A model generated the notes under the pieces. It was given only the letters and a program-made list of their open reading frames with translations, did no database searches and was not told the origin of the DNA. The position numbers were made by a program, and so were the translations under genes. 64,000 bases of DNA, from positions 248,001-312,000 of the forward strand of contig NZ_CP160849.1 in NCBI RefSeq assembly GCF_040790665.1. The letters run 5' to 3'. Shown piece by piece: positions 3,305 to 37,628 of the stretch (positions within the stretch are counted from its first letter, which is position 1; every line of letters begins with the position of its first letter). The DNA is from Sulfitobacter pontiacus. GTDB lineage: Bacteria; Pseudomonadota; Alphaproteobacteria; Rhodobacterales; Rhodobacteraceae.

Positions 3305-3328
3305 GGGGGCCTGCATCGGCAAGCCCCC
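3305..3328 (-). terminator. Hairpin between dctP and dctQ
   Basis: On the minus strand GGGGGC and GCCCCC arms enclose a 12-base interior that is followed by a T-rich stretch. Hairpins between binding-protein and permease genes often lower permease expression relative to the binding protein; that role is inferred here. Confidence 0.55.
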
Positions 3329-3340
3329 TCCTCGCGCCAA

Positions 3341-22702: not shown

Positions 22703-22731
22703 TGGTGCGGTCGGAGAGACTCGAACTCTCA
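22703..22731. repeat. attL: left junction, 29-bp copy of the tRNA-Leu 3' end
   Basis: Identical over 29 bases to 37543-37571, the T-arm, acceptor strand and CCA of tRNA-Leu(GAG). Identity stops sharply on both sides. The left copy has no matching 5' half, so it is an attachment-site duplicate rather than a tRNA. Confidence 0.95.
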
Positions 22732-22802
22732 AAATCCTCGCCGAATTCATGACCAATTAACTGATTTTATTGAATTAAATACCATCTGCCCACTCCCCCA
22801 AC

Positions 22803-22832
22803 TGGGACATGAGTTGGGACAAATTATGGGAC
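22803..22832. repeat. Left arm-type repeats: three TGGGAC boxes at 12-bp spacing
   Basis: TGGGAC begins at 22803, 22815 and 22827. The same three boxes with the same spacing occur inside the right junction (37457-37486). This pattern fits integrase arm-binding sites. Confidence 0.75.
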
Positions 22833-22975
22833 GCAGCACTCATGCACAACCGCTTGCTGTAGGGGAAGGGCAGTCATTTTACATGGCTACACTTTGTCCT
22901 TCGTTAGCAGGGTCTTGCTATTTCATACGCCCCCCCTATCAACTTAGATCAAAGTAACAGACAGGAGATAGAAAG

Positions 22976-23188
22976 ATGGAATTTCAAGTTAGGATAACGC
23001 TGCCCGAAGCGCCGAATGATAATCTAGCTGAACGCTTAAATCCCCATGGAATTGTTGCCCAATTCCGAGCCCCCGTTCCTCCACAAACAGAGCAGGACAT
23101 ATTCGCGGGGGATCTTGCTGACAATCTCGTTTCCGAGGGCATCGTATCGGAAGAACGACGCGGAGACCTTATTTTCTTCTTTGAGTGA
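22976..23188 (+). CDS. Small hypothetical protein next to attL
   Basis: A 70-residue protein with an AGGAG box eight bases before its ATG. It is acidic at the C-terminus (SEERRGDLIFFFE) and has no signal, span or recognised domain. It is one of two small plus-strand genes in an otherwise minus-strand island. No function can be assigned. Confidence 0.5.
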   Translation: MEFQVRITLPEAPNDNLAERLNPHGIVAQFRAPVPPQTEQDIFAGDLADNLVSEGIVSEERRGDLIFFFE

Positions 23189-24237
23189 TTACCCCAGCCG
23201 TTCGCCCAAAGACAATAGTGATCGGCCTGCGTTTAATAGTCTGAAAAATTTGCCTTCTGCCATACGTGCTGAGTATAATGTAGTTTACATTACCGTTGTG
23301 CAAGTTGGTCGGGGGCATTTTCAGGTAAGTCATTCCCAATAAATATTTGACAATATTGGCAGGTCACTCACCTGACAAAACGTCGTTGCAATTGAGCTGG
23401 CCTATTTAAGCAAAAATCATGCATTGAGGATCGCGCACTTGGAATGCTGCGATGCCAAAAGCTACCCCGTTCCCAGGCAGCCCCCCCTCAATATCAACGG
23501 AAAAGCTGCGCGCTAAAGGATAGTAAATTCAAAACCATCTGCCGTTAGGAACTTTAGTAAACTGAATATTTGGCGTGACGGTAACCGCGGACTATCAGTC
23601 CGCCCCACGTATCAGAGTACCTGACAACACCCTATTCAACCAAATCCGTTCAATTCAATATTGTATATCAAGTAGACTTTTCGAATCACCCTACAGGGCC
23701 TCAAACAATACCGCAATTCGAGGAATGCTATAACCGACGGGACCGATACTACTTGATATCGACTAGGGTGAAAAGGGGCGTAAAATGCGCAAATTGAAAT
23801 CAGTCCTAATCTCACTTGAACAAATTCTATAGCGGACCTAACTTAACCCCGGTGGTTTGTAGTTGCCGCTTTCACACTTTCGAGTTTGAGTAAGCTGTTT
23901 GGCAGGACATCTTGTTGCACTTCAATTCCGAAGGCTGAACTGCCTCAGATCATTTACCCTGAGTGTGCGTTAAATTAACTCCCTTCAGTCCGACTGAAAA
24001 GCGAATTCTATCAAGAAGCACTCCTTCAGGTATCCCGATCACTGCAAAACGCGCCTGTGATAACTATTATTTCCTGGACGTATGACAGAGATCGGCTGAT
24101 GCAATCACGAAAATGATTCTCTTCAATACCAATTGCATTTACTATTCGATAGAACTGATCAGGGCCTGAAGAAGTTATACACTGCATGATCTAGCCGATT
24201 CTCCTATTCGAACATAGCTGGGATTATTGCCGTTGGC
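23189..24237. other. 1-kb AT-rich stretch without a recognisable gene
   Basis: All frames are broken by stops; the longest frame (ending at 23342) has no start context or coding look. The stretch holds an 11-bp inverted repeat (ATATCAAGTAG at 23665-23675, CTACTTGATAT at 23749-23759) interlaced with an 8-bp pair (TCACCCTA at 23686-23693, TAGGGTGA at 23764-23771). It may be decayed sequence or hold a non-coding RNA; nothing further is supported. Confidence 0.5.
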
Positions 24238-27200
24238 CTATCTCATCCATGCTCTAACTCTTCTATTAGCATTTGAGACGTCGACGATTTGATCATCTTC
24301 CGATAAATGTGGCTGAATTTCTTCCCTCAGGCGCTCAACCAATCGTGCTCGGCTTGGCGATACCCTCCGAAGTATCTCTTCAGCGCTTACGGCAAACGCA
24401 AAGGCCAACTTATAGTTCCCCTTTTTATGAAGACACTCGGCGACCCACTGGCGAGCATAAGCCTGATTAGACAGACGATTTAGGTCAGTAGATTCTTCCA
24501 ATGCCCTAGTCGATTTACGATAGCAAACTAGAGCATCATCTTCCCGTCCTTGAAGCTGTAAGCATCTACCAACGTTGCCCTGCTTATTTCCTCTTTCAAC
24601 TTCCACGGTAGATGCGGGATCAATCAACTCAGATAAGGGCGTATCTCCCAAGAAATACTTAAGGGCCGAATCTATATCACCTGCATCACGCTGCGCGAGG
24701 GCTAGATTATGGCTACTTCCATACTGAGTGTCTACGTTAGTACGATCCTTGAGGCCCAACCCAATCTCAGCCCATTCAATTGCTTCTACGTAATTCCCCC
24801 TAATCCAACTTGAATAGCACCTCATGTCACAATAGTGAATGTAGCGGGCCGTCTTCTCGGGTATAGTCTGCTCAAACCTTTCAAGGATTTGGTTTGCACC
24901 TAAATAATCGCCAAGATCATCAAGGCACTTTACAAATTCTCCAACGATTTCGTCAAAACCTTTGTAATCAGACGATGCTACATTCCAATCGACAGCCTCC
25001 AATAGCGATCTTGCGACACGAATAAACTCTTCAGAATGCCCGCCTCCAATTAGCGCTGCAAGGGCATCATTAAGACTTTTTACAGCATCTTGATACTGTT
25101 GTGCTGCAATCTCAAGTTCAGCTTTTTGGGTCCATCTGCCCAGTAAAGAAAGCGGCAAAGAGAAACCAAGCATCTTTGTTAAAGATTTTATTATTGTTTC
25201 ATATTGACCAATTACCAAATTGATGAAGTCTTTCCGCTCATCAGGTGAAAAATTTTGTATTACAAACTGTCGAACCAAGGGATGAAGGTCATATAAATCT
25301 GGAGAATTAATTTCTGGTTTCACGACCACTAAGTTAAGTCGAATAAGTGAACTAAGTGCTTTCTTGAATTTGTTGTACCTCAGCCGAGAGGAAACATATT
25401 TTTCTAGGGTTTCCATTGTCTCCGGCCTTACAGCCTCGGCCATTATCCGCAACAATGTCTGTTCCCGTTCTGGGAGTCTTGTCCATATCGAAGAAAGAAC
25501 ATTCGGAGTTTCTTCCCGCCCCCGCCGCAAATCCTCAAGTAATCCAGCTAAAGTAACACCTGGAACCTGAGCGACCTGTACCGCGATCAGGTCAAGCCAA
25601 AAAGGGTGTCCTTTAGTCATTTCGTGTGCTGCTTCAATCTCTGTTTTCTCTACAACGACACTGTCTCCGCCCCGCTTCGCAAACAAAGCGATAGTTTCAG
25701 TGATACTCAGACCGGGCATTGGAATTGAAATCACACTTGCTTCTGAATATTTCACCTTAGGTCGACAGGTTAGAATAAGTTGACTGGTGGTCTCCGCGTT
25801 AGCAAAGCCTTCGACCAATCTCGCTAGCAAACCAACGAATCGAAAATTCTCCAAGTCGACATAGTGATCGACGTTGTCGAAGACGAAAATAGTCTTCGCA
25901 TTAGCACTGCAATCAACTAGCAAATCTGCAAGATCGGCGTCGCTACTATCAGCTAGCATTTCACTTGTGGTTTCCTCTGAGGTAATGCGGTCAACGGCAG
26001 CAATAACTTGTGTTCGAATGCTGTCGGCGGCTTCTTTACAGTCGCGCCAATCCCAGAACAGAAAATTAGAAGAGGTTGTGAAGGTGTCTTTGATATGCTT
26101 CGCGGCAGTCAGTGATTTGCCCTGCCCCCCCATACCGGTAAGAATTATAACTTGAGCCTGTGTCGTCTCCAAGGATCGCAATTCGGCGTCACGTCCGACC
26201 CAAGCCTCAATGTTCGGTGGACGATCACAATCCAGTAATTTTAGGTTTTGGGGGGTAGATACGAAATCAGCGGTAGAAGCCTTTTTCGGAGTTTGCGTAG
26301 AATGGAGCTTACAAGAAATACTCCACCTTTCAGCCAACTTGCTAAGAAAGTTGTGACAGTCTATTCCAGCGTATAAACTAACTCTACCCCTGTCCAGTCC
26401 CGGTTGAAGTACTGACCGCAAATGCAGTGGAATCGCTGGGGTGGTGTCATAAAATGCCCAAAGCACTTCTGGAAAACTTGCAGTATTGCCACCTAGATCT
26501 TTGAGCGCTGAGGTTAGAATATCCTCCCATCCCCCGTATGCAAGTACGACAACCAATTTGTCTTTCAGGTGCTCAAGAAGGGAGGATTTGAGTGTAGGAC
26601 GTGACTGCAGTAATTGAATCCCAGTGTGCAGTGTATCGGTACCCTGCCAATAACCGTGAAAATGAACTATCCGACATCCATCAGCACGCGTGTTTCCCAA
26701 ATCGCCGTCACCAATTAAGGAAGTCTGCCAAGCCAGTCCGTCAGCACGTCGGATCGCCACCTGTACCAAAGGGTCAAAGTTGGAAGTCAGAAGAGTTTTG
26801 CCGAAAACGTTCTGTTCTTTTGCAATGAGGTGACCGAGAGCTTCGACTCCTCTTGAGAGATGCCACCCGTCGCCATCGTTTTCCAGCTCTCGCAACTGTT
26901 CATCGTTTAAAGAACTAATAGCATCTACGGTCGAAACCGGATTAACGATGGGTATGCGTGCGTTGAGCACAGCTTCACGAACGATCTGATTGCATGCGTC
27001 TTGCCCGCGCCTGCCCTGTAAAAAGTGAAATGCCGCCTGATATTGGTTTGGGGATTCCGTGACAGTCTTCTCGAGTGATATGCGTTGAGTTGAACCTTCG
27101 GGAAATCGCTTTCTGATCCGCCCAATCATATCCTCGACATTCGAAACGCCCGGTTGCCCTCGTTCTTCTGGAGCAGTTAGCGGTGCTCCAACCACAAAAA

Positions 27201-27291
27201 CGACTTCCTTCGGTGATGCACGCAGCCCATCAGAAAGCCGATCTAGTAACGCTTCCTCATCAAAAAATGAAATATTTTCAAAACTAGACAT
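24238..27291 (-). CDS. SIR2-STAND-TPR protein, Avs-like antiphage NLR candidate
   Basis: A 1017-residue protein in three parts. Residues about 1-300 look SIR2-like: VVFVVGAP at the N-terminus, LTSNFDPLV (about 168) and FHGYW (about 214) match the NAD-pocket asparagine and histidine motifs, and VLAYGGWED is the later strand. Residues about 360-650 are an NB-ARC/NACHT-type STAND ATPase with WVGRDAEL, Walker A GMGGQGKS (about 383-391), Walker B TIFVFDNVD (about 465), and KGHPFWLDL. The C-terminal third has TPR-like helices. In known SIR2-STAND defenses a phage protein triggers oligomerisation and NAD+ loss; the trigger here is unknown. The ATG at 27291 is used; an in-frame GTG four codons upstream is possible. 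Confidence 0.85.
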   Translation of the reverse strand: MSSFENISFFDEEALLDRLSDGLRASPKEVVFVVGAPLTAPEERGQPGVSNVEDMIGRIRKRFPEGSTQRISLEKTVTESPNQYQAAFHFLQGRRGQDACNQIVREAVLNARIPIVNPVSTVDAISSLNDEQLRELENDGDGWHLSRGVEALGHLIAKEQNVFGKTLLTSNFDPLVQVAIRRADGLAWQTSLIGDGDLGNTRADGCRIVHFHGYWQGTDTLHTGIQLLQSRPTLKSSLLEHLKDKLVVVLAYGGWEDILTSALKDLGGNTASFPEVLWAFYDTTPAIPLHLRSVLQPGLDRGRVSLYAGIDCHNFLSKLAERWSISCKLHSTQTPKKASTADFVSTPQNLKLLDCDRPPNIEAWVGRDAELRSLETTQAQVIILTGMGGQGKSLTAAKHIKDTFTTSSNFLFWDWRDCKEAADSIRTQVIAAVDRITSEETTSEMLADSSDADLADLLVDCSANAKTIFVFDNVDHYVDLENFRFVGLLARLVEGFANAETTSQLILTCRPKVKYSEASVISIPMPGLSITETIALFAKRGGDSVVVEKTEIEAAHEMTKGHPFWLDLIAVQVAQVPGVTLAGLLEDLRRGREETPNVLSSIWTRLPEREQTLLRIMAEAVRPETMETLEKYVSSRLRYNKFKKALSSLIRLNLVVVKPEINSPDLYDLHPLVRQFVIQNFSPDERKDFINLVIGQYETIIKSLTKMLGFSLPLSLLGRWTQKAELEIAAQQYQDAVKSLNDALAALIGGGHSEEFIRVARSLLEAVDWNVASSDYKGFDEIVGEFVKCLDDLGDYLGANQILERFEQTIPEKTARYIHYCDMRCYSSWIRGNYVEAIEWAEIGLGLKDRTNVDTQYGSSHNLALAQRDAGDIDSALKYFLGDTPLSELIDPASTVEVERGNKQGNVGRCLQLQGREDDALVCYRKSTRALEESTDLNRLSNQAYARQWVAECLHKKGNYKLAFAFAVSAEEILRRVSPSRARLVERLREEIQPHLSEDDQIVDVSNANRRVRAWMR

Positions 27292-27735
27292 TTGCACTGC
27301 CACCCATATTAGCCCGACCGTAGGGCGACTTTATAACCTTTACACCCAACGTTATACGAGGGGCGCATTTCTTTAACGTTTGTTTTTTTAGAAGAACTGT
27401 TTGTCATGTCTAGAAAAAGTCCGCCCGCGATATTGTATGAAGGCTGTTCCTTAGTGAAGATAGGTTCAAGCTCTTATTTTCTGCCTCGATAGCGCGATAC
27501 CAGTGAAAACTGTAAGTCGAACCATTTTCATTTATCCCTGCTATGGCGAGTCCAGAACCCACTCGTGTTGCTCTGAAATGTGCATTCAGCTGCTGGGTTA
27601 ATTACGCTGCGGTACTGGGTACCCCCCAATGGGTCCCCTAGTTTAATTTATATAGGGTAGCGCACCGCCAAGGTTGGCAAATCAAGAACTTCGGCAGCGA
27701 ATAAAACAGGATTTATCTGATTTAAATAAATCCTG
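27292..27735. other. Intergenic region between the recombinase and NLR genes
   Basis: About 440 bases with no supported gene. The right part lies just downstream of the serine recombinase stop and the left part must hold the promoter of the SIR2-STAND gene. Confidence 0.4.
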
Positions 27736-28299
27736 TTAAGCAGATAGGTAGCGGTAGACGCTGCTGCGGGCGATACCAAGCTCCTGTGCGATGGCTGTGG
27801 GCGTCAGTCCCTTGTCCTTCATGGCTTTTACCTGTGCGGCGTCTATGGTCGCAGGACGACCCTTGAAGGGGGAGTCGTCACCCTTGGCAAGCGCTGCGTC
27901 TATGCCTTCGCGCTGGCGGTCCTTGCGTATCTCAGTTTCAAACGTGGATATCGCTGAAAGCATCGAGAAGAACAGGCGTCCTGCGCTGGTAGTGGTATCG
28001 ATGTCCTGCTCCAGCACCTTGAGGCCTACACCCTTCTCCTCAAGGATATGGGCGATATTGTGTAGATCGCGGGATGATCGGGCCAAGCGGTCCAAACGCG
28101 TCACAACGACTGTATCACCCTTGCGGATGCCACGGCTAAGCATGTCCTCCAGTGCGGCGCGTCCGGTCCTTTTGGTTCCGCTAGCCTTCTCTGTGTAGAG
28201 GTGGTCCGGGTGGACGCCTGCGCCCGTTAGGGCGGCAATCTGGATATCCAACTTCTGCCCTGCGCTGCTTACCCGTGCATATCCGATTAGTTCACCCAT
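27736..28299 (-). CDS. Serine recombinase (resolvase/invertase family)
   Basis: A 187-residue small serine recombinase. The N-terminal catalytic domain has YARVSSAGQ with the nucleophile serine, VVTRLDRLARSSRDL, and the long E-helix region (RLFFSMLSAISTFETEIRKDRQREGI). The C-terminus is a helix-turn-helix (TPTAIAQELGIARSSVYRYL). An AGGAG box six bases upstream decides the ATG at 28299 over upstream alternatives. It could resolve replicated dimers of the island or invert a segment; two inverted copies of a palindromic repeat lie 170-265 bases upstream. Confidence 0.92.
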   Translation of the reverse strand: MGELIGYARVSSAGQKLDIQIAALTGAGVHPDHLYTEKASGTKRTGRAALEDMLSRGIRKGDTVVVTRLDRLARSSRDLHNIAHILEEKGVGLKVLEQDIDTTTSAGRLFFSMLSAISTFETEIRKDRQREGIDAALAKGDDSPFKGRPATIDAAQVKAMKDKGLTPTAIAQELGIARSSVYRYLSA

Positions 28300-28465
28300 G
28301 ATCATCTCCTGTCTCATTAGACTGTCCGTTAAATAGATAGCGTCCCATATATGATTCGGAAAGTCTAATAGGACACATTCAGGCACATTTCACATGTCCG
28401 GAAAGAGTATACTCAAAACGGACGCCGGGATGATCGGAAACCGGAGGGGCGCGGCGATCAGGTCA

Positions 28466-28563
28466 CCCGCTAACGCGGGGGGGATGCCCACTCGATAGGT
28501 CATAGGGGCGATAGGCCAGCGGGATGTGGATGTGGGTTGATGGTATTCCCCCGCGTTAGCGGG
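28466..28563. repeat. Inverted pair of CCCGCTAACGCGGG palindromes
   Basis: Copies at 28466-28479 and, reversed, at 28550-28563. Flanking bases (GGGGGGATGC and GCATCC) also match in inverted form. They lie upstream of the serine recombinase and could be its target or operator sites, but similar copies occur elsewhere in the island. Confidence 0.65.
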
Positions 28564-28773
28564 ATGCAGGTCCACCTTGGCGAAAAGTAATTTTATTGTA
28601 TTCGAGTCGCTTCATGCGCAACTTTGTTACTTGATGGTTACAGGGGTCAAGGCCCTGTGTTTTATGATAATATATTCAATTTACCGAATGTGATGGATGA
28701 TTTCGCGGGGTTGCACCATTACGGTCGTGCAGGGGCTGAGCGGAAGTTTTAGGGTCAAGAAGGTCTGAAAGCA

Positions 28774-29098
28774 GGAATGCAGTACGATACAGTGGAATGC
28801 AGTAAGAATACAGTGGCCACTGCAGACGTAAGTCATTGAAATGAAACAATATTCATCGAAAATGCAGTAATACAGTGGAATTTGCCCGTTTGCCGCTGTG
28901 CTATTTTATTTTTTTTTCGATCCTGCTTAGCGGGGGAGAGGGTGTGTAAAAAAAATATTTCCTAGAGTCTTAAGACCTAAATTCCTACTGTATTACTGCA
29001 TTTCTCAAAAAAATACATATAAAACAAAGACTTAAAGAAAATTCTCACTGCATTCCCACTGTATTCCTACTGCATTCTTACTGCAGTGCACTGTATTT
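28774..29098. repeat. Iteron array, candidate replication origin
   Basis: Repeats of GAATGCAGTA / GAATACAGTGG at 10-11 bp steps run forward at about 28774-28816 and 28859-28878, and in reverse at 28984-29003 and 29045-29098. A 17-bp perfect inverted repeat (28860-28876 and 28987-29003) brackets an AT-rich core of about 110 bases. It sits just 3' of the replication gene, as in the origins of staphylococcal pathogenicity islands. No coding frame crosses it. Confidence 0.78.
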
Positions 29099-29156
29099 TC
29101 CCGCTCCTCCCGCCTTTTCGCCTCCCTCGCGCAACATGCGGGCGAGTTCAAGAACA

Positions 29157-29214
29157 GAAAAGGCCCGCTAACGCGGGCCTCTACTGTGTCAGGCATCCAG
29201 CCCGCTAACGCGGG
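29157..29214 (-). terminator. Tandem palindromes, terminator of the replication gene
   Basis: AGGCCCGC-TAAC-GCGGGCCT at 29161-29180 is followed on the minus strand by TTTTCTG, an intrinsic terminator form. A second copy of the 14-base palindrome lies at 29201-29214, within a partly duplicated unit of about 37 bases sharing TCAGGC and GCATCCA flanks. Confidence 0.7.
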
Positions 29215-29225
29215 CCTATACTCTG

Positions 29226-32200
29226 TCAGGCTGCCCGACGCTTCTCAAATTGCAAGGTCCAGACCTTGGTGCCCCCCTTGGTTCCCTTTTCCAGAAAGTA
29301 GGTTCCGCCATCACGGTCAGCCCGGAATGTTTCTGCAAACCGTCCGAACTGGCGAGACAGTGCCGTGGTGTCATTGTAGGTCTGCGAATGCTTATCGTAA
29401 GCCCAGCCGTTGATGTAGAGTGGATCGCCATCATCGAAGCCTTCCAGTTCTGCCTTGACAGATACGCCATTCTTAAAGCGCTTAGCGTCTCCTACCGCGA
29501 AGTTCGTACCGACATCGAACTGGATGATGCGTTCCTTCAGTAGATTGATGGGGCTATCCTGCTCCTCGTTAGCGGACTTAAGCATTTCGCGGTTACCCAT
29601 GAACCCGCCCATGCCTGCGGCCTCAAGAACACCACCGACGACGCCGGACCAGTTCTCATATGAAGCTAGAACCGTGTCTGTCTGCTTTACCATCCCCTGC
29701 GCCACCCAGTTCTGGATGATCGTCAGGCAGGCCCATACAAGGTCTCCCCGGTTTTCAGAAGCCCACCCACAGATATTGCCATGCCGGAACCCAGTACGCT
29801 TTTCAGGGTTTTCCATCTCTGCGTCCAAATCGATCATGATCAGACGACGGATAAGCTCCGGCGAAAACTTTACGTCGTTACCTGTGAACACCCATGCGCA
29901 GCGGACATCGACCTCAACCGTTTGTGTCTTTCCCAAGATACGAGCCTGATACACAGGCGTAGTCATGGCGGAGGCCAATTCCCCACTATCGACGGAGTGG
30001 TTGATGTTGTCGAAGAACACGATGTTCTGTCCGTTCGAAAGGACTGACGTCAAGGTCTTGCCCATCTCATCGTTCCCTCCGGGCATTGCCAGCGCAGGCG
30101 TAGCGCGACCCGCCGCGATGATAGAGATTGCATCCACAAGAAGTGATGCACCTGTACCTGGAGCGGGCTTGTTTAGAAGGTGACCGGGTGTAGCCCCGTC
30201 GATCATTTCCCGCATAAACGGCAGGAGGATCAAGGCCATCATATTGGTAACCGCCGCTACACCCTCTCCATGCAGAGCCTGTTCTACGATTTCAGGACGC
30301 GTTAGAGCACCCAGCGGGAAGTCTGCTAGCACTTCTTCAATGAGGAGCCGCTTCGCCTCATAGACCTCTTGGCTGGTTGGCACAGCGCTAACGCGCTTCA
30401 TCACCAGTTCGCTTTGCAGGTATATTTCTGAACCGCTGTGGTATCCGTTCTCAGTAACTAGCGCTCCATCAGCGGCGAAAAATGGTGTGTCGACCGCACC
30501 TCTGATAGGCAACAAAAACTCAGACAGGTCCCCGGCGAAAACGTCCTCCACTACATCCTTCGGAGGGTAAATGTGCTGGGTCTCACCTTCGTTCGTTTGC
30601 CTGTGAAAGCTGGCAACGTCTCCGAGCTGCCGTCGCTTCATTGCGTGATTTGTAATGCGAAGACGCCCATTTCGAACGATTGCTGCGTCTTCCATATACT
30701 CAAAGAAAAACGGGGTTTCTTCGTTCGCTCTCTTGATGGCCTCACAGGCGTACCGCGTTTGGTCAGGCGCTGGTTCAGTGACTAGGATTCCATCTGGACG
30801 GTCGCCCTTTTCGCTGGTGGTGCTGCGTAATGTCTTCGCCACCTTCTTCCAGAGATCCTTGACGGGCTGCTTACCTAAGACGGTCGCGGCGACAATGGCA
30901 TCCATGAGGCGGGCCTTGGTCGTGGAATCCACCCCCTCCTTTATTGCCTCTTCGATCAGCGTTGCGATTTCGTGCTCCGTGGTATCCTTGTCCAATGCCA
31001 TTGCACGTTCTTCAAAGGTGGCCCGCTTTTCCTGTTCGCGCTCCTTCTTGATCTCCACAGGTTCGAATGGGTCATCGACACCATCCTCTCCTTCGAGGAT
31101 GAATCCGAGGTCGATATCCATGATAGCATCCTCTTCGAACCATCCCTGCCGAAGAGCCTCTTCAAGGTGCTGTAGCTTGTGTCGACCTTGGCAGGCGTCG
31201 TGATGGCAAAACCAAGTCCAATACTCCGACTGAGAGTCCACTGCGTTAACCGCCATCGTCGCTGTACCACCTTCAGAGGTGTGCTCATGTTCGAAGGGGC
31301 ATTCGGTGTGGACGTGTCCCTGTGCTTCACCACCTGCGTTGCGCACACGATCTGGGCACAGGGTCTCCATCAGGTCCGCGAGCATGAAGCGGTCCTTCGC
31401 GGTGCGGTGCCAGTCGTTCAGGCTCTTCCCGGACGGCGTCAGCGCCATCGGTGGACGTTCATCACCAGACATGTCTGCGGCCATCGTGAAGGCGTTCACC
31501 TCCCGATTGGACGTGTAGACGCTCTTCTTCATCGGCTTGACGTCATCGAACTTGAGGGGAGTCCCCATCACTACCGCCGCACACCAGTCGTCACTACCCT
31601 TCGGGTGGCGGGCTGTATAGAACAGGCGGCTTGGATCGGTACAGGACGTATCGAAGTGGATGCCAAGGGTGTTCTGAGCTAGACCTGTGATCTTGTCTTC
31701 CCACAGGTCCAAGGATGCCTGCTGCGTATCAGCCAGATCGATCAGCTTGACCGGAGCCTCCAGAGGAAAGATGAGACGAAACTTTTCAAGCGGAGGAGTG
31801 TCAAGAATGATCTTTACACCCTCGGTCGTCTGCACCTTCTGCGCACTTACAGCACAAGCAGAAATGAAACTTTCCTCGTAGCGGTTCTTGTCGAATTCTC
31901 GCAGGTATTGCTTGATTTCAGCCTCAGTCGGATCACGCGCAACCTTAAGCTTTCGAAGCACTTCGTCGCGCTTCAGCTCAAGACCTGTCGTGCCATTGTT
32001 ATAGGACGTGTAGACAATACATAGTAGGCCCTTTTCTTCAACATCCGCGAGGACATCATCGAGCTTTGCGCCGGAGTCGATATCCAGACCCATGGCATAC
32101 ATGGTGTCCATCGCCTTGGCCTTGCGAGCACCTCCTACAGACGATCCTAGGACGATGCATGGGCCTGCCTTGTGCTTGCTTTCAGGGTGGCGGGAGAAGC

Positions 32201-32627
32201 CCCACGCAGGGGCGTTGCCGCTTCCGGCACCCCCACCAATCCACTGTCCCCACGTCATTGTGGGAGATTGCCATTCCGAATCTTGTGTATTTCTACGGTC
32301 GCGTGCTCCCCACATCTCCCCTGTCAGGAAGGACACCTCTCGATTGAGGAATTCCGCCAGACCTTCCGACTCGGTGCCTAGGATTTCAGCGTCGTTCAGT
32401 GAGGGAAGGTACACAGGTTCATCAGCTAGAACTTCGCGGCTGCTTCCATCTTGGTAGTCGGCAATCTCCACCACGTTACTCGCCGCGTACTTTGCCAGTC
32501 CCCCTGCGTAGGATGCTGTGCGAACTGATCCATCTTCGCCGAACAGGTTCAGCCCTGCCTTTAAGAAAGGGGCAGCAATCGTTTCTTCCGACGCATCGCT
32601 ACGCTGGGTAGTAGTAGTACTAGTCAT
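29226..32627 (-). CDS. Primase-polymerase/helicase-like replication protein
   Basis: A 1133-residue protein. The N-terminal part resembles archaeo-eukaryotic primase-polymerases: GLDIDSG (about 178-184) as the metal-binding DxD and DPSRLFYTARHPKG (about 330-343). Residues about 440-485 hold a Cys/His cluster (CPFEHEH, CHHDAC) like a zinc finger. The C-terminal part is a helicase-type ATPase with PGTGASLLVD (about 819), Walker B NIVFFDNIN (about 868) and FSPELIRRLIMIDLD (about 920). The P-loop has alanine where lysine is usual. It likely starts replication at the adjacent iterons. The ATG at 32627 is used; an in-frame GTG ten codons earlier is possible; neither has a clear ribosome site. Confidence 0.82.
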   Translation of the reverse strand: MTSTTTTQRSDASEETIAAPFLKAGLNLFGEDGSVRTASYAGGLAKYAASNVVEIADYQDGSSREVLADEPVYLPSLNDAEILGTESEGLAEFLNREVSFLTGEMWGARDRRNTQDSEWQSPTMTWGQWIGGGAGSGNAPAWGFSRHPESKHKAGPCIVLGSSVGGARKAKAMDTMYAMGLDIDSGAKLDDVLADVEEKGLLCIVYTSYNNGTTGLELKRDEVLRKLKVARDPTEAEIKQYLREFDKNRYEESFISACAVSAQKVQTTEGVKIILDTPPLEKFRLIFPLEAPVKLIDLADTQQASLDLWEDKITGLAQNTLGIHFDTSCTDPSRLFYTARHPKGSDDWCAAVVMGTPLKFDDVKPMKKSVYTSNREVNAFTMAADMSGDERPPMALTPSGKSLNDWHRTAKDRFMLADLMETLCPDRVRNAGGEAQGHVHTECPFEHEHTSEGGTATMAVNAVDSQSEYWTWFCHHDACQGRHKLQHLEEALRQGWFEEDAIMDIDLGFILEGEDGVDDPFEPVEIKKEREQEKRATFEERAMALDKDTTEHEIATLIEEAIKEGVDSTTKARLMDAIVAATVLGKQPVKDLWKKVAKTLRSTTSEKGDRPDGILVTEPAPDQTRYACEAIKRANEETPFFFEYMEDAAIVRNGRLRITNHAMKRRQLGDVASFHRQTNEGETQHIYPPKDVVEDVFAGDLSEFLLPIRGAVDTPFFAADGALVTENGYHSGSEIYLQSELVMKRVSAVPTSQEVYEAKRLLIEEVLADFPLGALTRPEIVEQALHGEGVAAVTNMMALILLPFMREMIDGATPGHLLNKPAPGTGASLLVDAISIIAAGRATPALAMPGGNDEMGKTLTSVLSNGQNIVFFDNINHSVDSGELASAMTTPVYQARILGKTQTVEVDVRCAWVFTGNDVKFSPELIRRLIMIDLDAEMENPEKRTGFRHGNICGWASENRGDLVWACLTIIQNWVAQGMVKQTDTVLASYENWSGVVGGVLEAAGMGGFMGNREMLKSANEEQDSPINLLKERIIQFDVGTNFAVGDAKRFKNGVSVKAELEGFDDGDPLYINGWAYDKHSQTYNDTTALSRQFGRFAETFRADRDGGTYFLEKGTKGGTKVWTLQFEKRRAA

Positions 32628-32834
32628 AAGTCTTGGTCTTCTTTCTCTCTTTTTCACCCGTGGCGGGCTGCTGTGTTATTTTAGCTTCAAGCTGAAATGT
32701 CTTTTCGCATTACCTCTTGCAATTCCTGTGTAAGTGTGAATCACGATTCGATCAACGAATCATTTTATGATTCTCGTGTTTTCTGTTTTTTGTAGCGCCC
32801 GGGTCACGAAAGACCGCTACAGCCTAGAAAAAGC

Positions 32835-32957
32835 TTGACAAATGGGGGCGTACCGGGTTAGGTTTATTGGAGTAGGGGGTTGTGTCCCTATTTCTTTTCC
32901 TTGGTGTAGTCCTTTCTCCTACACCCTGCGCCGCTCCTTATTGGGGCGGCGTTTTTT
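32835..32957 (+). ncRNA. Candidate structured small RNA opposite the terS end
   Basis: A TTGACA box at 32835 is followed after 18 bases by TAGGTT. Downstream come three hairpins in a row: TAGGG/CCCTA (32873-32890), GGTGTAG/CTACACC (32903-32925) and CGCCGCTCC/GGGGCGGCG (32929-32951), the last followed by six T. This is a complete promoter-to-terminator unit of roughly 85-90 transcribed bases with no coding frame. It lies between the replication gene and the terS-like gene and ends at the terS stop codon. Confidence 0.55.
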
Positions 32958-33525
32958 ATTGCTCATCCCTTGCCGCTGCCCGGTGCGCCCTGTTCCGGGC
33001 CATCGTGCCCACCTCAGGCGAAACCTCTACATCTTTCGCTGGCTGATCATCGACGATCTTGACTGTAGGCGCTGCTAGCTTTGCGAGAATGGACATCATA
33101 TGATCAATATCAATATCGATCTTTTGACCTCTGGTCTTAGGTGCGTCACTGCCCCGCGCTTCTGCATCTCGGATCAACTTTTCCAAGGACCGCGTCGCGT
33201 CTGTGGCTGACTTCCAGTCGCCAGAGGCGCGGGCCTTCGCTAAAATTTTACGATACTGTTCTGCGCACCAAGAAATGGTAATGCCTAGGTCAGCGAGGCT
33301 CCCGCCTGAGCTTCTTGGGGCCATGCTCGCGAAAATGCGTGCGGCTTCTTCATTTCGCAGCTCATTGACTCTCGATGCCACCTTCTTCGCGAGGCGCGAT
33401 GCCGCCGCCCTGTTGTTGGTGGTGGCATATCCGGCGCGAGCATAAGCCTCTCGTTGCTTGACCCCACCGGCGAGCAACCGCGCAAATCTCTCGTGCTGCT
33501 TGTTGGGTAATTCTGCTGCCATCAC
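32956..33525 (-). CDS. Terminase small subunit-like DNA-binding protein
   Basis: A 189-residue protein whose N-terminus (LPNKQHERFARLLAGGVKQREAYARAGY, followed by RLAKKVASRVNELRN) matches the helix-turn-helix start of phage terminase small subunits, which recognise packaging sites. The rest is charged and ends in a basic tail (ARNRAHRAAARDEQ). It overlaps the gene before it by four bases, at the end of an operon of small island genes. No large subunit is present, so it could redirect a helper phage terminase, as PICI TerS proteins do. Assignment rests on the HTH region only. Confidence 0.62.
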   Translation of the reverse strand: MMAAELPNKQHERFARLLAGGVKQREAYARAGYATTNNRAAASRLAKKVASRVNELRNEEAARIFASMAPRSSGGSLADLGITISWCAEQYRKILAKARASGDWKSATDATRSLEKLIRDAEARGSDAPKTRGQKIDIDIDHMMSILAKLAAPTVKIVDDQPAKDVEVSPEVGTMARNRAHRAAARDEQ

Positions 33526-33818
33526 ACAGGCTCCAAGACGTTTAAGATATCAACCAGCCCGCCGTCCGGGAATGCAGTGAAAAGGTCAGACTTTCCTCCT
33601 GCGCCACGTGCCGTGGTCCACTCTCCATCGGTGTTGGTAGACTGAGCAAAACCAGCTTGAAGCAGCACCGACATGGTCAGAACTGCATCGTCATCCAGCT
33701 CTCGCTTCAAGCGATTAAAGTCGACGTAAAATCCTTGACCGCGTAATTCAAACGCGTCCATCGAATTTGTTAAAAATCTGGCGAGCTGCGTGCTCAAACC
33801 TGCTGTCTGTTCGTACAT
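33522..33818 (-). CDS. Hypothetical island protein
   Basis: A 98-residue protein of unknown function (MYEQTAGLSTQLARFL start). It has no span or signal. Its stop overlaps the terS-like start by four bases, so the two are likely co-translated. It lies 93 bases after the preceding gene of the operon. Confidence 0.65.
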   Translation of the reverse strand: MYEQTAGLSTQLARFLTNSMDAFELRGQGFYVDFNRLKRELDDDAVLTMSVLLQAGFAQSTNTDGEWTTARGAGGKSDLFTAFPDGGLVDILNVLEPV

Positions 33819-33911
33819 TTATCAGTTCTTTCTCTTAGTTGTTGGAGGTGATCCGGCGACGGGAGAAACGTCGCCGCCGGATCGACTGGCTGTGGGCAGG
33901 CCAGTATTCTT

Positions 33912-34169
33912 TCACGATGCTTGATCTTGATCCTGCGCTCGGCGCGCGGAAAGGATTTCGTCTATCTGCTGTTGAATTCGAGCTGCCTCCTCGGCAAGCT
34001 GCTGGGGCGTCCAGAACCGGCGGCGCTCTAAACCCCGTTGGAGCTTTTCCCTGACGGCCTTACGCTTTTGAGCTTCTTTCCCAGATCGCTTTGGCCGTGC
34101 TGAAGCATCGCTGTGATCGTCACTTGTGATTGAATCTAGAAAGCTTTCGCGGCTCACAGCAGCCCCCAC
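33912..34169 (-). CDS. Small charged hypothetical protein
   Basis: An 85-residue, highly charged protein, basic in the middle (KRSGKEAQKRKAVREKLQRGLERRR) with a helix likely to coil (QLAEEAARIQQQIDEIL). It overlaps the upstream gene by 16 bases. It may bind nucleic acid or act as a scaffold-like helper; that is speculation from composition. Confidence 0.6.
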   Translation of the reverse strand: MGAAVSRESFLDSITSDDHSDASARPKRSGKEAQKRKAVREKLQRGLERRRFWTPQQLAEEAARIQQQIDEILSARRAQDQDQAS

Positions 34170-34660
34170 TTTCTCGCCAGTGCCACACGCTGCGCCGGGT
34201 TCTTAACCTCTTGCAAAAGTTCGATCTTTTCGGCGCGGGACCTAAGATCATCCTGCACTGGCGGTGGCGTTGCGATTCCAAGCTCTCGCGCCATTGAAAT
34301 TCGTCGGGCGCGGTCATCGCTGCTGCGCTCATAGTGCACTACTTCCTTGCCCGCGTTGACCTTCTGCAATGCCACCGCCATGGCTTCCTGATCGCCAGCG
34401 GCGATATCTGCCTTAAGCTTGCTGTCTGATAGACTTGACAGTTCCAGCATTTGGCGGTCCAGCTCGTCACGATCAAGCGTAGCGCCAAGCGTCGCGTTGC
34501 GCAGCTCCGCGATGGCGGTACAGTCTTCGATGGTCAGGTCTACACCATGCTGCTCTCTGGCAGCGCTGATCGTGTCCTGCACCAGTGCAGAAAATCGATC
34601 TGTCAAAACAGGGCTGGAATTAACGATATTGTTGAATGTTTCGAAACTCTGGGGCATCAT
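34154..34660 (-). CDS. Hypothetical island protein
   Basis: A 168-residue, mostly helical protein, no recognised domain. The C-terminus (NPAQRVALARKWGLL) and the centre (HYERSSDDRARRISMARELGI) are basic. Its ATG overlaps the stop of the preceding gene (ATGA). It may be a packaging or regulatory gene by position. Confidence 0.62.
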   Translation of the reverse strand: MMPQSFETFNNIVNSSPVLTDRFSALVQDTISAAREQHGVDLTIEDCTAIAELRNATLGATLDRDELDRQMLELSSLSDSKLKADIAAGDQEAMAVALQKVNAGKEVVHYERSSDDRARRISMARELGIATPPPVQDDLRSRAEKIELLQEVKNPAQRVALARKWGLL

Positions 34661-35157
34661 GCAGCCTCCTCAAAATTAGTATTACGGCAATTGACGAGCG
34701 CAAACGCTGGGGCAATACCTGCGACATCGCAGGTCGCATCGACTCCGACGACACATCGCAAAACGTCACGTTGCAGGAGCAGAAGGTCCGAAAGGGTCCC
34801 AACAGATTCCATGACGGAAGGCACGGCCATCGCACTGTTCGCCACCGACGCAAAGAAGAGGCTACGCGCTACATCAAAACGTGCACGGCAATCTTGGGGC
34901 AGCACGGCAAACAGCGCCTTTGCAGTAGTCACATCATCAGCGACGTACAGGCGATCATCTTGGACCGCGACTGTAGCGACCAGCCGCTGCATGGCCCCGT
35001 CATCCACTTCCTTTTGCTTCAGGGTTAGGAGGGCATCCGCCAGACCAAATCGGTGCGGCCTTGATCGCACGTCGCGGGGTACGCTCTCCAACCGCCGTCG
35101 TGCTGTACCAAGATGGACGCCGACGGCATCTGCGTAGTCAAAAACTGTTATATTCAT
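34657..35157 (-). CDS. HTH protein, first gene of the small-gene operon
   Basis: A 166-residue protein with an N-terminal winged-helix-like segment (MNITVFDYADAVGVHLGTARRRLESVP) of the kind found in Nu1-type and MerR-like DNA binders. An AGGAAA box precedes the ATG. It opens the minus-strand operon that runs to the terS-like gene and faces the divergent small gene at 35383. It could be a regulator, excisionase or DNA-recognition subunit; the sequence does not decide. Confidence 0.6.
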   Translation of the reverse strand: MNITVFDYADAVGVHLGTARRRLESVPRDVRSRPHRFGLADALLTLKQKEVDDGAMQRLVATVAVQDDRLYVADDVTTAKALFAVLPQDCRARFDVARSLFFASVANSAMAVPSVMESVGTLSDLLLLQRDVLRCVVGVDATCDVAGIAPAFALVNCRNTNFEEAA

Positions 35158-35382
35158 TATTTCCTGCTCATTTTGTTAATGTTAAATTCTTCTGTTGACT
35201 TAACCTACTAAATATTGCAGCCAGAGTCAATCGAATCAACAAAACGGGTCAGAAAATGGTAAGTAATTGCGGCGAGATGTCAGGCAAAATGACATTATCA
35301 CGTCATTTATACTAACCTTTACAATAGGTTATGACTCCACATAGTTTCGACCTATGGAAACTTTGAATGGAGAAGAATAATC
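35158..35382. promoter_or_regulatory. Divergent control region with two inverted repeats
   Basis: AAATGAC/GTCATTT (35287-35293 and 35302-35308) and TAACCT/AGGTTA (35313-35331) lie side by side between divergent genes, an operator-like layout. On the plus strand TTGACT lies at about 35194. A repressor is not identified. Confidence 0.5.
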
Positions 35383-35571
35383 ATGAAAACTTTTGAGCAG
35401 ATGCACGGCGACCTAATTTCCGCGACATCGGGGCTGGCAGATACCTGCCTCTCGCCGATGTCAGATGTATTATTGCAACATCTGAGCGGGATGCTGGCAC
35501 AGGTGCAGGAACAGCTATCCGCGATGCAGGAAGCCATGCCTACAGGCAACGCAGTTCATCTTGATAGGTGA
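35383..35571 (+). CDS. Small hypothetical island protein
   Basis: A 62-residue protein with a GGAGAAG box upstream. It is largely helical (LLQHLSGMLAQVQEQLSAMQEAM), possibly a short coiled coil. It is divergent from the HTH operon and followed by a palindromic repeat. Function unknown. Confidence 0.45.
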   Translation: MKTFEQMHGDLISATSGLADTCLSPMSDVLLQHLSGMLAQVQEQLSAMQEAMPTGNAVHLDR

Positions 35572-35579
35572 TGCATCCA

Positions 35580-35747
35580 CCCGCTAACGCGGCTCAACTT
35601 CAGCGACGACATGAAGGCTGAAGTAGAAACACACCTGCGTGCCACACTCGAGGTCCTGAAGTCGATAGGAGAGCCAATGCAGGCCATATCCGCGATGCTT
35701 TGGCGGGATGATATATAGAATGAGCAGAGGCCCCTGACGGGGCCTCT
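35580..35747. repeat. Palindrome copy and hairpin downstream of the integrase gene
   Basis: CCCGCTAACGCGG at 35580-35592 (with GCATCCA upstream as at the 29.2-kb copy) belongs to the island repeat family. AGAGGCCCC/GGGGCCTCT with a TGAC loop at 35726-35747 lies beyond the integrase stop and may end its transcript, though no T-tract follows. Confidence 0.55.
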
Positions 35748-35774
35748 CTGTAGGTCTGCTAGGTATCGTCCTGC

Positions 35775-37439
35775 CTAGTCTCGGACACACCTTGCGATCT
35801 CTTCCAGCGCTTCAAGCTTGGTCGCCAGCAGGTCGTCGCCGCCATACCCAGCCTCAACGACATCTTCACCGTCGAGACGCCCTGCAATCAGGCGGCGTGT
35901 TTCCTTATCGATCTTGGCGCGTCGTGCTGCGTCTGTCCAAGAATGCCGCAGGCTGTGGAAGGTCATACCCTCTTCGGTCAAACCCAACTTTTCACGAACG
36001 GTGCGGGAAAAGTTTTTGCCGTACACCTCAGTGAAACGCCCACGCCTGTCTGGAGCAACCTCAACCAAACTCTTCTTCTTCGTCAGATTGTCTGTGAAGC
36101 TGCGCTGGAAAAGGTACTTCGCCCCCGCCGCCATGCGACTTTGCCAGTACTCGATAAAACCTGCCGCCAAAATGGGTGAAGGTATCGGAATGGTTCGCAA
36201 GCTGTGCTTATTCTTAATTTTTTGATCTTCGCCTAGGTCTGTGATGTCCATGACGTATATGTTGCCCACCAACCGGACGTCATTGATCGTCAGCTGACCT
36301 ATCTCCTCACGGCGTGCCCCCGTGTAAGCAGCGAACATAGGCATCCAATAGTCCATTACCTGACGATCAAAAGTTTTTGCGCAGTGATCCAAGATCATTC
36401 CCACTTGCGTGGGCGTATAAGGTATAACGTCCGATTGCTTTGCCTTGCTGTGCTTCACCTTCTCACCTACCGGCTCGTATCCCGCGAAGGGGTCCGACAG
36501 AAGCAGGCCAGCCCTCGCCACCGCGTACTTGGTCATCGCTTTTAGGTGGTCACTGTATCGCTTCCGAGTCTTGTAGCTGATCGACTCTAGACCCTCCGCC
36601 CTCCCCTTCGCCACCGCATCCAAAATTGACAGACTACGCACATCACGCCGCCCGCTAGATGGCAGACCGCGTAGAACCTCATCGAACTTGTGAAGATGCG
36701 CCCGCGTCCATTTTTCAATCGGGATGTCACCATGAAGTTCGACCCAGCGGCGAACCGTGTTCGCGACCGCCTCACGGTTCTGCATGGTGTAATTGTGCGC
36801 GTCTATGAAACCCTCGGAAAGCTCACGGATTCCGGTTATCCCTTCGTCTATGCCATCCGGCGGCGGCGGGACGTCTTCACCTAGAGCACCCGCAACCACC
36901 TTTAGACGCCGCGTCTCTGCGGTAAGGTGATCTATCCGGGCATGCGCCTCTCTACGCCCTAGCTCCTGCTCCAGACGTCCTACAGAAGGTGTGTCAGGCT
37001 CTCCCCCGCTGACGCGGGTCGGCGGCGTTTCGTGACCACCTTCCACCTCGATATAATTATCATCTGCTAGCTCAGCCCCCACCCCCGCCAACGTGAAAGC
37101 TGCCACCGCGCGTTGCTCTTTGATCTGACGCAGAAGGCCATGGACGCCGCCTAGCTCTGCCAGCAGCGCCGCGTCAGCGGGATCCAATGTCGCCGCTATA
37201 CGCTCTTGCTCTTCTTTACGTTCTAGATTGCGAAGCTGCTGGCGAAAGATAGCCCTCTGGTCTTCCACCTTGTCCTTTGCGGTCTGGGCATCGGTTGTCT
37301 TCATAGTGCCATCAAAGATTAGCTTAAACTTACCCGGAGTCCTCGACGGGTACAGATTTTGAATCTTGGAGGGGATGGGGATGTTGAAATGGTATGTCCC
37401 GTTTCTCTTCTTCGTACCAGCTACCTTTGTCATGACCAT
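35775..37439 (-). CDS. Tyrosine integrase of the island
   Basis: A 554-residue site-specific recombinase. The N-terminus (GTYHFNIPIPSKIQNLYP) resembles the DUF6538-type domain; then an arm/core-binding region and a C-terminal catalytic domain with YTGARREEIGQL (first Arg, about 375), FHSLRHSWTDAA (His and second Arg, about 495) and the likely nucleophile in VEAGYGGDD (about 530). It lies beside the tRNA-Leu attachment site. A longer frame to 37493 would code over the TGGGAC repeats, so I prefer a start at 37439 or 37433. A variant palindrome (CCCGCTGACGCGGG, 37005-37018) lies inside the gene. Confidence 0.92.
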   Translation of the reverse strand: MVMTKVAGTKKRNGTYHFNIPIPSKIQNLYPSRTPGKFKLIFDGTMKTTDAQTAKDKVEDQRAIFRQQLRNLERKEEQERIAATLDPADAALLAELGGVHGLLRQIKEQRAVAAFTLAGVGAELADDNYIEVEGGHETPPTRVSGGEPDTPSVGRLEQELGRREAHARIDHLTAETRRLKVVAGALGEDVPPPPDGIDEGITGIRELSEGFIDAHNYTMQNREAVANTVRRWVELHGDIPIEKWTRAHLHKFDEVLRGLPSSGRRDVRSLSILDAVAKGRAEGLESISYKTRKRYSDHLKAMTKYAVARAGLLLSDPFAGYEPVGEKVKHSKAKQSDVIPYTPTQVGMILDHCAKTFDRQVMDYWMPMFAAYTGARREEIGQLTINDVRLVGNIYVMDITDLGEDQKIKNKHSLRTIPIPSPILAAGFIEYWQSRMAAGAKYLFQRSFTDNLTKKKSLVEVAPDRRGRFTEVYGKNFSRTVREKLGLTEEGMTFHSLRHSWTDAARRAKIDKETRRLIAGRLDGEDVVEAGYGGDDLLATKLEALEEIARCVRD

Positions 37440-37441
37440 TT

Positions 37442-37486
37442 GTCCCAAATTGATGTTGGGACATAAGTTGGGACAAATACTGGGAC
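37442..37486. repeat. Right arm-type repeats: three TGGGAC boxes at 12-bp spacing
   Basis: TGGGAC begins at 37457, 37469 and 37481, with an inverted TGTCCCA at 37441. The same array occurs inside attL. Because it overlaps the region just upstream of the integrase start, integrase binding here could also repress its own gene. Confidence 0.75.
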
Positions 37487-37542
37487 AAAACAAGCTGGAA
37501 CTGCCTATTATGTACGAAATTCAATAATATAGGGGGACAAAT

Positions 37543-37571
37543 TGGTGCGGTCGGAGAGACTCGAACTCTCA
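37543..37571. repeat. attR: right junction inside tRNA-Leu
   Basis: The 29-base copy identical to 22703-22731. It defines the right end of the island. Confidence 0.95.
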
Positions 37572-37628
37572 CGGGTGTTACCCCACAGCGACCTCAACGC
37601 TGCGCGTCTACCATTCCGCCACGACCGC
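37543..37628 (-). tRNA. tRNA-Leu (anticodon GAG)
   Basis: 86 bases with a genomically encoded CCA. The acceptor stem GCGGTCG/CGACCGC, anticodon stem CAGCG/CGCTG with loop TTGAGGT (anticodon GAG), a variable arm and the T-arm GAGAGTTCGAGTCTCTC fold well. Its 3' 29 bases form attR of the island, and integration leaves the gene intact. Confidence 0.96.

Follow-up and report, generated by a model that had tools for sequence, protein, structure and literature searches.

This locus raises the question of what kind of element has entered a tRNA-Leu gene of Sulfitobacter pontiacus and on whose machinery it might depend. The window, that is, the whole stretch analysed here, comprises 64,000 nucleotides of contig NZ_CP160849.1 (positions 248,001 to 312,000), and the element, hereafter the island, occupies window positions 22703-37571. 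The initial annotation had read it as a satellite of a Rhodobacterales phage that resembles the phage-inducible chromosomal islands (PICIs) and carries its own defence gene. Our analysis supports this reading as right in kind and sharpens it to one phage group: from gene homology and island architecture, we consider it about 85% probable that the island is a phage satellite from a Rhodobacterales family living on phages of the DSS3P8 type.

Insertion site and gene content

The insert measures 14,840 bp and is flanked by a duplication (TGGTGCGGTCGGAGAGACTCGAACTCTCA) whose copies are identical at 29/29 positions, the right copy forming the 3' end of tRNA-Leu(GAG); this tRNA was the sole match in an Rfam scan. 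The longest repeat in 50 Markov shuffles of the window was 14-18 bp, and the longest window repeat apart from this attachment site (att) was 15 bp. The exact att duplication described earlier was therefore confirmed. The GC content is 0.511 in the island and 0.579 in the flanks.

Comparison with other genomes of the genus revealed the unoccupied site. In the closest relative found (G192), the match to a cystathionine-synthase-like gene and the match to the tRNA flank lie 99 bp apart, versus 14,940 bp between the same markers in the host; when the window flanks were joined, 722/759 positions aligned with G192 and contained one unbroken att copy. Empty sites with aligning flanks were also found in G396 (104 bp) and G425 (103 bp) of the same genus, and the island primase was not found in 15 other same-genus genomes searched. 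The insertion is thus real and precise, and it is absent from these three relatives. The search for genomes with and without the insert that had been proposed at the outset thus returned both, since related islands occur in other genera. Repeats of TGGGACA inside both ends look like putative integrase arm sites; the word itself is not rare (10 in the window versus 7.15 expected), and only the end arrays stand out.

Reading from the tRNA, all genes lie on the minus strand in the order integrase, orf166, orf168, orf85, orf98, terminase small subunit (TerS), primase-helicase, serine resolvase and a SIR2-STAND-TPR protein. The integrase is of the tyrosine type, as annotated, and the resolvase is an addition to the earlier gene list. 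Core genes have a GC content of 0.51-0.57 versus 0.464 for the SIR2-STAND cargo. The island is a compact, att-bounded insert with an integrase and no virion structural module: Pfam and PHROGs listed no large terminase subunit (TerL), portal, capsid or conjugation family for the window proteins, in agreement with the initial annotation. The same families were not listed for 62 selected proteins of eight att-bounded islands, the window included, in a scan covering all 15 matching Pfam families and 25/36 matching PHROGs families; one family named 'tail protein' matched 1/62. Conjugation or large terminase genes in relatives, which would have spoken against a satellite, were therefore not listed. 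The statement that an AlpA-like gene is missing may not hold as regards function: no Stl/AlpA repressor was recognised, but a Xis/MerR-type winged helix is predicted at the start of orf166. The orf166 model (AF2 pLDDT 89) weakly matched Pukovnik Xis in Foldseek (probability 0.66, E 3.1), and a fold search with orf168 gave no match.

Kinship with DSS3P8-type phages and the family in Rhodobacterales

A search of 50,697 phage records returned the same six best records for the primase-helicase and for TerS: Roseobacter phage DSS3P8, Ruegeria phages vB_RpoS-V10 and RpAliso, Bacteriophage DSS3_MAL1, Phaeobacter phage MD18 and Rhodobacter phage RcXuper. Identity of the primase to the six was 56-66% over 83-85% of its length (28-29% in the next rows shown), and that of TerS was 34-44% (E 5e-24 to 2e-18; next best record 8e-4). 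In the family libraries, the primase-helicase matched phrog_10537, a family of unknown function, at E 1e-284, and its helicase part matched phrog_19930 ('DNA polymerase/primase', 2.7e-22), which bears out the annotated function; no Pfam or NCBIfam family matched, and a PDB search with the primase profile was empty.

The lone TerS-like gene was also upheld. Its best PHROGs family was phrog_32222, of unassigned function (6.5e-7), followed by four terminase-small-subunit families from 2.5e-6. The phage homologue lies directly upstream of TerL in 5/5 loci examined; the TerL is annotated as terminase in 4/5, and a 564-aa hypothetical protein next to the homologue in MD18 would be the TerL of that phage. 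A better match to a non-packaging family had been named as grounds for doubt: the TerL-adjacent phage match stands for packaging, although the family of unassigned function does score slightly better. TerS is predicted to be the gene that could redirect helper packaging.

The DSS3P8-type phages are siphophages of ~147 kb (146-150 kb), with a prolate head and a long, non-contractile tail. According to excerpts of its description, DSS3P8 is a lytic siphovirus, its prolate head measuring ~130 x 40 nm and its tail ~300 nm, yet its genome has integrase and repressor genes (PMC4961962); MD18 is likewise described in excerpt as lytic, with a prolate head ~100 nm long (PMC7643831). The other island proteins had no match in the phage pieces searched, and the small satellite genes were not found there. 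A single search of the host genome, run without a positive control, found no TerL of the DSS3P8 type at E<=1e-3. In the primase tree, the closest partner of the island is its Citreimonas counterpart (L044; support 100/99); the five phage sequences branch among those of the islands, whereas CbK-type phages lie outside. Genes appear to have moved between phages and satellites, in either direction. As a side observation, the 'putative transposase' of MD18 (L003:28268-29137; 'transposase' in DSS3P8) occupies the place of an SPFH/prohibitin gene in MAL1, RcXuper and RpAliso, and its name is probably wrong.

A primase-alignment scan of 84,980 species genomes detected at least 13 loci, all in Rhodobacterales genera; a viral-contig scan added one viral contig, and 390 Rhodobacterales genomes added four. 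Together these give at least 18 further loci with a primase relative, 17 of them in Rhodobacterales genomes and one on the viral contig. A primase match of some kind was present in 45/390 Rhodobacterales genomes, the island's own included; outside the order, a class-wide search gave helicase-part matches only, in 3/385 genomes besides its own. Ten of the 19 loci, counting the window, are bounded by a repeat at the end of a tRNA gene (Leu, Val, Thr or Phe), and the other nine stop at contig ends or gave no boundary. The bounded islands measure 14,840 (window), 14,977, 14,868, 15,586, 15,094, 15,507, 16,185, 15,736, 15,982 and 12,895 bp (mean 15,167 bp, sd 926, n=10), the nine non-window values counting a second repeat copy. 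Boundary repeats are 15-53 bp long, the shuffle test applying to the window island; the shortest (L043) begins exactly at the tRNA end. Because island size is uniform and near one tenth of the phage genome, a packaging limit is suggested.

Gene content is shared across the 19 loci to different extents: orf168 occurs in 14, the resolvase in 14, TerS in 11 and orf166 in 10, and contigs end soon after the primase in two of the eight TerS-less loci. Four bounded islands carry TerS, five carry a tape-measure gene and one (L067) carries neither. In three loci (L052-L054), the confirmed primase match covers the N-terminal half of the query only, and in L068 the C-terminal half only; these primases may be chimeric, with possible module swaps between satellite replication proteins. 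Two further observations concern neighbouring elements. The Thalassovita genome that contains L047 (G381) has another satellite as well, L069, which uses the same tRNA-Leu(GAG) as the window island. L018-L024 and L075-L077 have helicase-part matches only, with no hairpins of the type described below in the 3-4 kb examined, and are perhaps a separate element family that also occurs outside Rhodobacterales.

The five bounded sisters without TerS (L043, L044, L049, L053 and L054) have their tape-measure gene in the cargo half; that of L054 was assigned by similarity only, from a separate plus-strand list of open reading frames (ORFs), as mechanical picking chose antisense frames. The Roseivivax tape measure (1080 aa) is 735 residues shorter than that of MD18 (1815 aa): its first 50 residues (66%) and last 430 (67%) match MD18, and the middle is much shorter. 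Its best phage matches are again the six records found for the primase and TerS, with a clear gap after them; for the tape measures of the other four sisters, the comparison covered MD18 alone. L045 combines TerS with a partial tape measure of 508 aa, and no tape-measure gene was found in the window island by Pfam and PHROGs scans. Excerpts of a report on ICP1 satellites state that PLE11 has its own tape measure, giving tails 10 nm shorter, and mention putative tape-measure genes in other satellites (PMC12987554); the sisters' tape measures likewise predict shorter tails. Since the primase, TerS and one sister's tape measure share the same six best phage records, the DSS3P8-type phages are the likely helper group.

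These genes bear on the strongest competing explanation, an integrative element or defence island that replicates by itself, has taken up phage genes and uses no phage particles. The island does have its own replication module, a resolvase and defence cargo, and 8/19 loci lack TerS, as would suit such an element. However, the five TerS-less sisters keep a tape measure whose ends match those of the phages, the scans listed no transfer family, and TerS is not known to us to have a use outside packaging. We therefore rate this explanation as improbable.

Candidate replication origin and a shared hairpin

The initial annotation had placed iterons just beyond the end of the primase gene. Two opposed iteron arrays around AT-rich DNA do lie there, between primase and resolvase, and form a candidate origin adjoining the primase gene; the 32-nt tandem at 29163-29231 that was first taken for the iterons, by contrast, is two copies of the hairpin described below. 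The word AATGCAGT occurs six times in the 500 bp after the primase, and 0/200 shuffles reached as high a count. A loose iteron pattern allowing one mismatch was not enriched window-wide (17 versus 20.4 expected); only the exact clustering at the origin was. Repeated 8-mers right after the primase exceeded all 200 shuffles in 10/15 loci and were not significant in the other five (L045, L052, L053, L055 and L056). By eye, the iteron words end in GCA in L051 (CTACCAGCA), L046 (CTACCCGCA), L044 (ACTCCCGCA), L050 (CTCCCCGCA), L049 (ACCCCTGCA) and the window (CCTACTGCA); the words of L047, L048 and L054 have other endings, and the words vary between islands. No iteron-like clusters were found beside phage primases in 500-bp windows of the phage pieces examined.

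The primase itself is divided in its affinities. Identity over the core is 68% with MD18 and 45% with the Roseivivax island. From residue 1036, the C-terminus shares 51/98 identities with the Roseivivax island, compared with 9/24 residues with MD18, 8/20 with the best-scoring phage and 8/18 with its tree partner L044. Phage-type C-termini are present in the primases of L047 and L048. In the SaPI Rep proteins, origin specificity resides in the C-terminus; by analogy, the satellite-type C-terminus fits the island's own iterons, and the protein is likely a replication engine of phage type fitted with an origin reader of satellite type.

This replication module also helps to judge whether the island is what remains of an integrated DSS3P8-like prophage stripped of its structural genes. 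Two of its genes are clearly phage-related, and DSS3P8 itself has integrase and repressor genes, according to excerpts of its description (PMC4961962). However, ten islands of near-equal size share a common set (integrase, orf166/orf168, TerS or tape measure, primase and, in most, the resolvase), most have their own iterons, and the other island proteins were without a match among the phage pieces searched. Decay would not be expected to produce such an arrangement again and again, and a prophage remnant is therefore very unlikely.

A second sequence element links the islands with the phages. The 12-mer CCGCGTCAGCGG is the only one present in all ten bounded islands and in the examined DNA of five phages. 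We generalised it, after this finding, to a hairpin consisting of GC, then GTCA, TGAC, GTTA or TAAC, then GC, with complementary arms; counts in host, flanks and other phages were made after the pattern had been chosen, and the search covered five of the six phages (V10 outside). The ten islands (152 kb) hold 112 cores, of which 83 have three further pairs, in 21 distinct versions. In the phages (314 kb), 99/135 cores are paired (MD18, 34/54; parts of DSS3P8, 27/33, of MAL1, 14/18, of RcXuper, 13/17, and of RpAliso, 11/13; the 0.9-kb overlap of two DSS3P8 pieces holds no core), as are 42/74 in the nine unbounded loci. Paired cores were absent from the host (0/65; 20 stretches, 400 kb), the island flanks (0/21; 110 kb) and the other phages searched (RC1, 0/3; part of phiCbK, 0/6; part of Erythrobacter XM05, 0/4).

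Random re-pairing of the arms gave at most 26 paired cores in the islands (versus 83) and 28 in the phages (versus 99), and a scan of all 3-8 nt loops left the GC[GTYA/TRAC]GC core as the sole large outlier. With these loops, any closing pairs and 5-bp arms, the counts were 106 in the islands, 5 in the host (400 kb), 4 in the flanks (110 kb), 3 in the part of phiCbK and 1 in that of XM05. Taken by itself, the window island gave no significant pairing (6/10 cores; 87/2000 shuffles as high) because most of its arms are alike, and the covariation rests on the ten islands and the phages. All four exact copies of CCCGCTAACGCGGG in the 3.55-Mb genome lie within the island. The 14-mer CCCGCTGACGCGGG was rejected as a specific marker: it is present in 91/390 Rhodobacterales genomes, and its reversed control also scores in many. 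Even so, 23 of the 122 sites listed are no more than 15 kb away from a primase match. Hairpins were found around other primase relatives at 16/32 short loci (12/28 without four parts of larger loci), and they may follow some primase subgroups only.

Regarding function, a plain terminator was not favoured, with 66/83 island copies lying inside mechanically picked ORFs (which make up 88% of the islands); some phage hairpins precede T runs, as terminators do. With respect to the primase, the island hairpins favoured neither strand clearly (GTYA 46, TRAC 37), and a lagging-strand signal oriented from the origin was unsupported in islands (Fisher p 0.26). In MD18, a hand count against the annotation placed the TRAC loop on the sense strand 26:8, and a scripted count in mechanically picked ORFs gave 11 sense and 14 antisense. 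We tentatively raise the possibility that the hairpin is a structural DNA code of satellites and helpers, with a fixed loop and paired variable arms, read on single-stranded DNA. It may be read by the machinery with which the phage replicates or packages its DNA, perhaps by the primase-helicase common to both, as a priming or self-recognition signal. If so, the satellites would need the hairpin in order to be copied along with the phage. The signature could help to find further satellites.

Table 1. Features of the island and related loci (window positions unless a locus, L, is given).
Feature	Position	Strand	Remarks
att duplicate, distal copy	22703-22731		exact 29-bp repeat; present once in L063, a relative with the empty site
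Arm-type repeat, TGGGACA units, inside distal att	22803-22832		27/30 match to 37457-37486
SIR2-STAND(NB-ARC)-TPR protein, predicted defence cargo	24238-27303	-	GC 0.464
Small serine resolvase/invertase	27736-28386	-	PF00239 6e-37; relatives in 14/19 loci
Shared hairpin, 5-bp arms	28466-28479		
Shared hairpin, 5-bp arms	28550-28563		
Candidate replication origin, two opposed iteron arrays around AT-rich DNA	28784-29093		unit about TGCAGTAGGAA, 10-11 bp
Shared hairpin, 8-bp arms	29161-29180		just past primase
Shared hairpin, 6-bp arms	29200-29215		
Primase-helicase (Rep), 1143 aa	29226-32657	-	phage-type core, satellite-type C-terminus from ~residue 1036
Shared hairpin	30384-30397		within primase gene
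Terminase small subunit (TerS)	32956-33525	-	34-44% to six DSS3P8-type phages; alignment A2
orf98	33522-33818	-	4-bp overlap with TerS start; weak relative in L044, E 3e-5
orf85	33912-34169	-	related ORFs in L043, L044, L049, E 4e-4 to 3.5e-6
orf168, widespread small satellite gene	34154-34660	-	family F1 (11/15 loci)
orf166, conserved satellite gene	34657-35157	-	family F3; predicted N-terminal Xis/MerR-like winged helix
Tyrosine integrase, 572 aa from TTG	35775-37493	-	ATG at 37439: 554 aa; Phage_integrase PF00589 4.8e-9; phrog_1 5e-23
Shared hairpin	37005-37018		within integrase gene; only exact CCCGCTGACGCGGG in 3.55-Mb genome
Arm-type repeats, TGGGACA units, inside tRNA-side att	37441-37487		upstream of int
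att copy at tRNA 3' end	37543-37571		exact 29-bp repeat
tRNA-Leu (GAG), integration target	37543-37628	-	ARAGORN; Rfam tRNA 54.9 bits
L049 tape-measure gene	L049:15750-18992		
Phage NAD-synthesis genes	L003:36834-39634; L005-L008 near 525-3600		

Predicted defence cargo, proposed cycle and known systems

The defence gene named in the initial annotation was borne out by domain matches. NB-ARC (residues 379-569, 4.1e-5) and TPR (907-979, 9e-7) both fall just below the Pfam cut-offs, and a SIR2 region at ~150-312 is recognised by SIR2-Ago models (1.6e-6), SIR2_2 being weak (0.016); the architecture of SIR2, STAND NTPase and repeats is thus present. The only Avs model listed for the protein was Avs4 (E 0.049). 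Besides the protein itself, 390 Rhodobacterales genomes contained one relative (64%; L078, G304), which lies near another integrase gene and a tRNA-Thr. Because this sole relative sits near a different integrase and tRNA, the gene probably moves as cargo. Sister islands carry AbiJ/CHC2, NERD, LmuA-like and beta-protein genes in this role, and PADLOC gave two weak named matches, both in L045, for ten further cargo proteins (L045, L051, L053, L056, L067 and L069). Between the STAND gene and the distal att, ~1 kb (23200-24190) has no convincing gene; a small plus-strand ORF (22976-23188) adjoins it.

In all five phage primase loci examined, a nicotinamide phosphoribosyltransferase gene ('nicotinate' in MAL1) and a NadM-type gene lie beside the primase. 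The pair resembles the NAD+ reconstitution pathways that, according to excerpts of a review (PMC12300627), are reported to weaken defences of the SIR2 type. With these genes the phages may counter defences like the one predicted for the island, in an NAD arms race that would set phage NAD synthesis, the satellite's SIR2-type gene and the host against one another.

From the att sites, the empty site, the gene homologies, the origin architecture and the family, we infer a cycle of excision, replication and packaging with helper dependence and defence. On infection, the integrase, probably with orf166 as excisionase or regulator, would excise the island at the tRNA-Leu att. The primase-helicase, with its phage-type core and a putative origin-binding C-terminal domain of satellite type, would start replication at the adjoining iterons, and the serine resolvase would resolve multimers. 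TerS would then steer the helper's large terminase to island DNA, which would be packed into helper heads, either remodelled or as concatemers of ~ten copies. The SIR2-STAND cargo would protect the cell or block competing phages.

Several points weigh against this satellite reading. All of the evidence is from sequence, with no excision, circle or transduction seen, and the helper group is not known to infect the island host. TerS identity to the phages is only moderate, and TerS is lacking from eight of the 19 loci. Library scans recognised no capsid-size, cos/pac or repressor gene. The forks of the primase tree are open around the phages, and its starred branches force at least two label changes, so that transfer may have run either way. 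In the iteron test, 2/15 upstream control segments (L045 and L054) also beat all 200 shuffles.

Many marine bacteria belong to the Rhodobacterales, and a satellite of DSS3P8-type phages would provide this order with a family of such elements and a likely group of helpers, phages that have already been cultured on Ruegeria pomeroyi DSS-3, Phaeobacter inhibens and Rhodobacter capsulatus. A circular form, packaging and, for the tape-measure sisters, shorter tails are predicted. Among the best-ranked papers, with most subscription papers and preprints outside reach, we found no literature on satellites of DSS3P8-type phages or of Rhodobacterales.

PICIs (SaPI/EcCI) are att-flanked elements of ~15 kb with a tyrosine integrase, a Rep with an adjacent iteron origin, a lone TerS and a defence or cargo end, and the island is like them in all these respects. 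It differs in that its primase core is of phage stock, most members have a serine resolvase, no Stl/AlpA repressor or capsid-size gene was recognised, and the likely helper is a 147-kb siphophage. The comparison was made by features and family libraries, and no PICI of Rhodobacterales was seen among the papers listed. Direct descent from SaPI/EcCI-type elements would account for the same modules (integrase, a regulator like Xis or AlpA, a Rep that ends beside its iterons, TerS and cargo), but it is highly improbable, given that the primase and TerS are of DSS3P8-type phage stock and that the small ORFs, TerS and primase matched no PICI-named family in Pfam, PHROGs or NCBIfam, although such families may be scarce in these libraries.

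The PICI-like elements (PLEs) of Vibrio cholerae resemble the present family as satellites of a large lytic phage, ICP1, with a shortened tape measure, as in five sisters here; the window island differs in having TerS and no tape measure. The PLE11 tape measure is shortened by 95 residues, according to excerpts of its report (PMC12987554), versus 735 in Roseivivax, which keeps phage-like ends. The phage-inducible chromosomal minimalist islands (PICMIs) are similarly small marine satellites of virulent phages, one with a defence system; in the excerpted account they lie next to fis in Vibrionaceae and are packaged as concatemers (PMC10803314), whereas the island occupies a tRNA-Leu site in a Rhodobacterales host and has TerS and a resolvase. 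With the DSS3P8-type phages it shares the primase core, TerS and the hairpins, and its sisters share the tape measure; these phages, however, are autonomous, measure 146-150 kb, have their own primase C-terminus and lack the satellite small genes in the pieces searched. These comparisons suggest that the island represents a new satellite family with a likely helper group, one that would work like a PICI but is not filed as a PICI.

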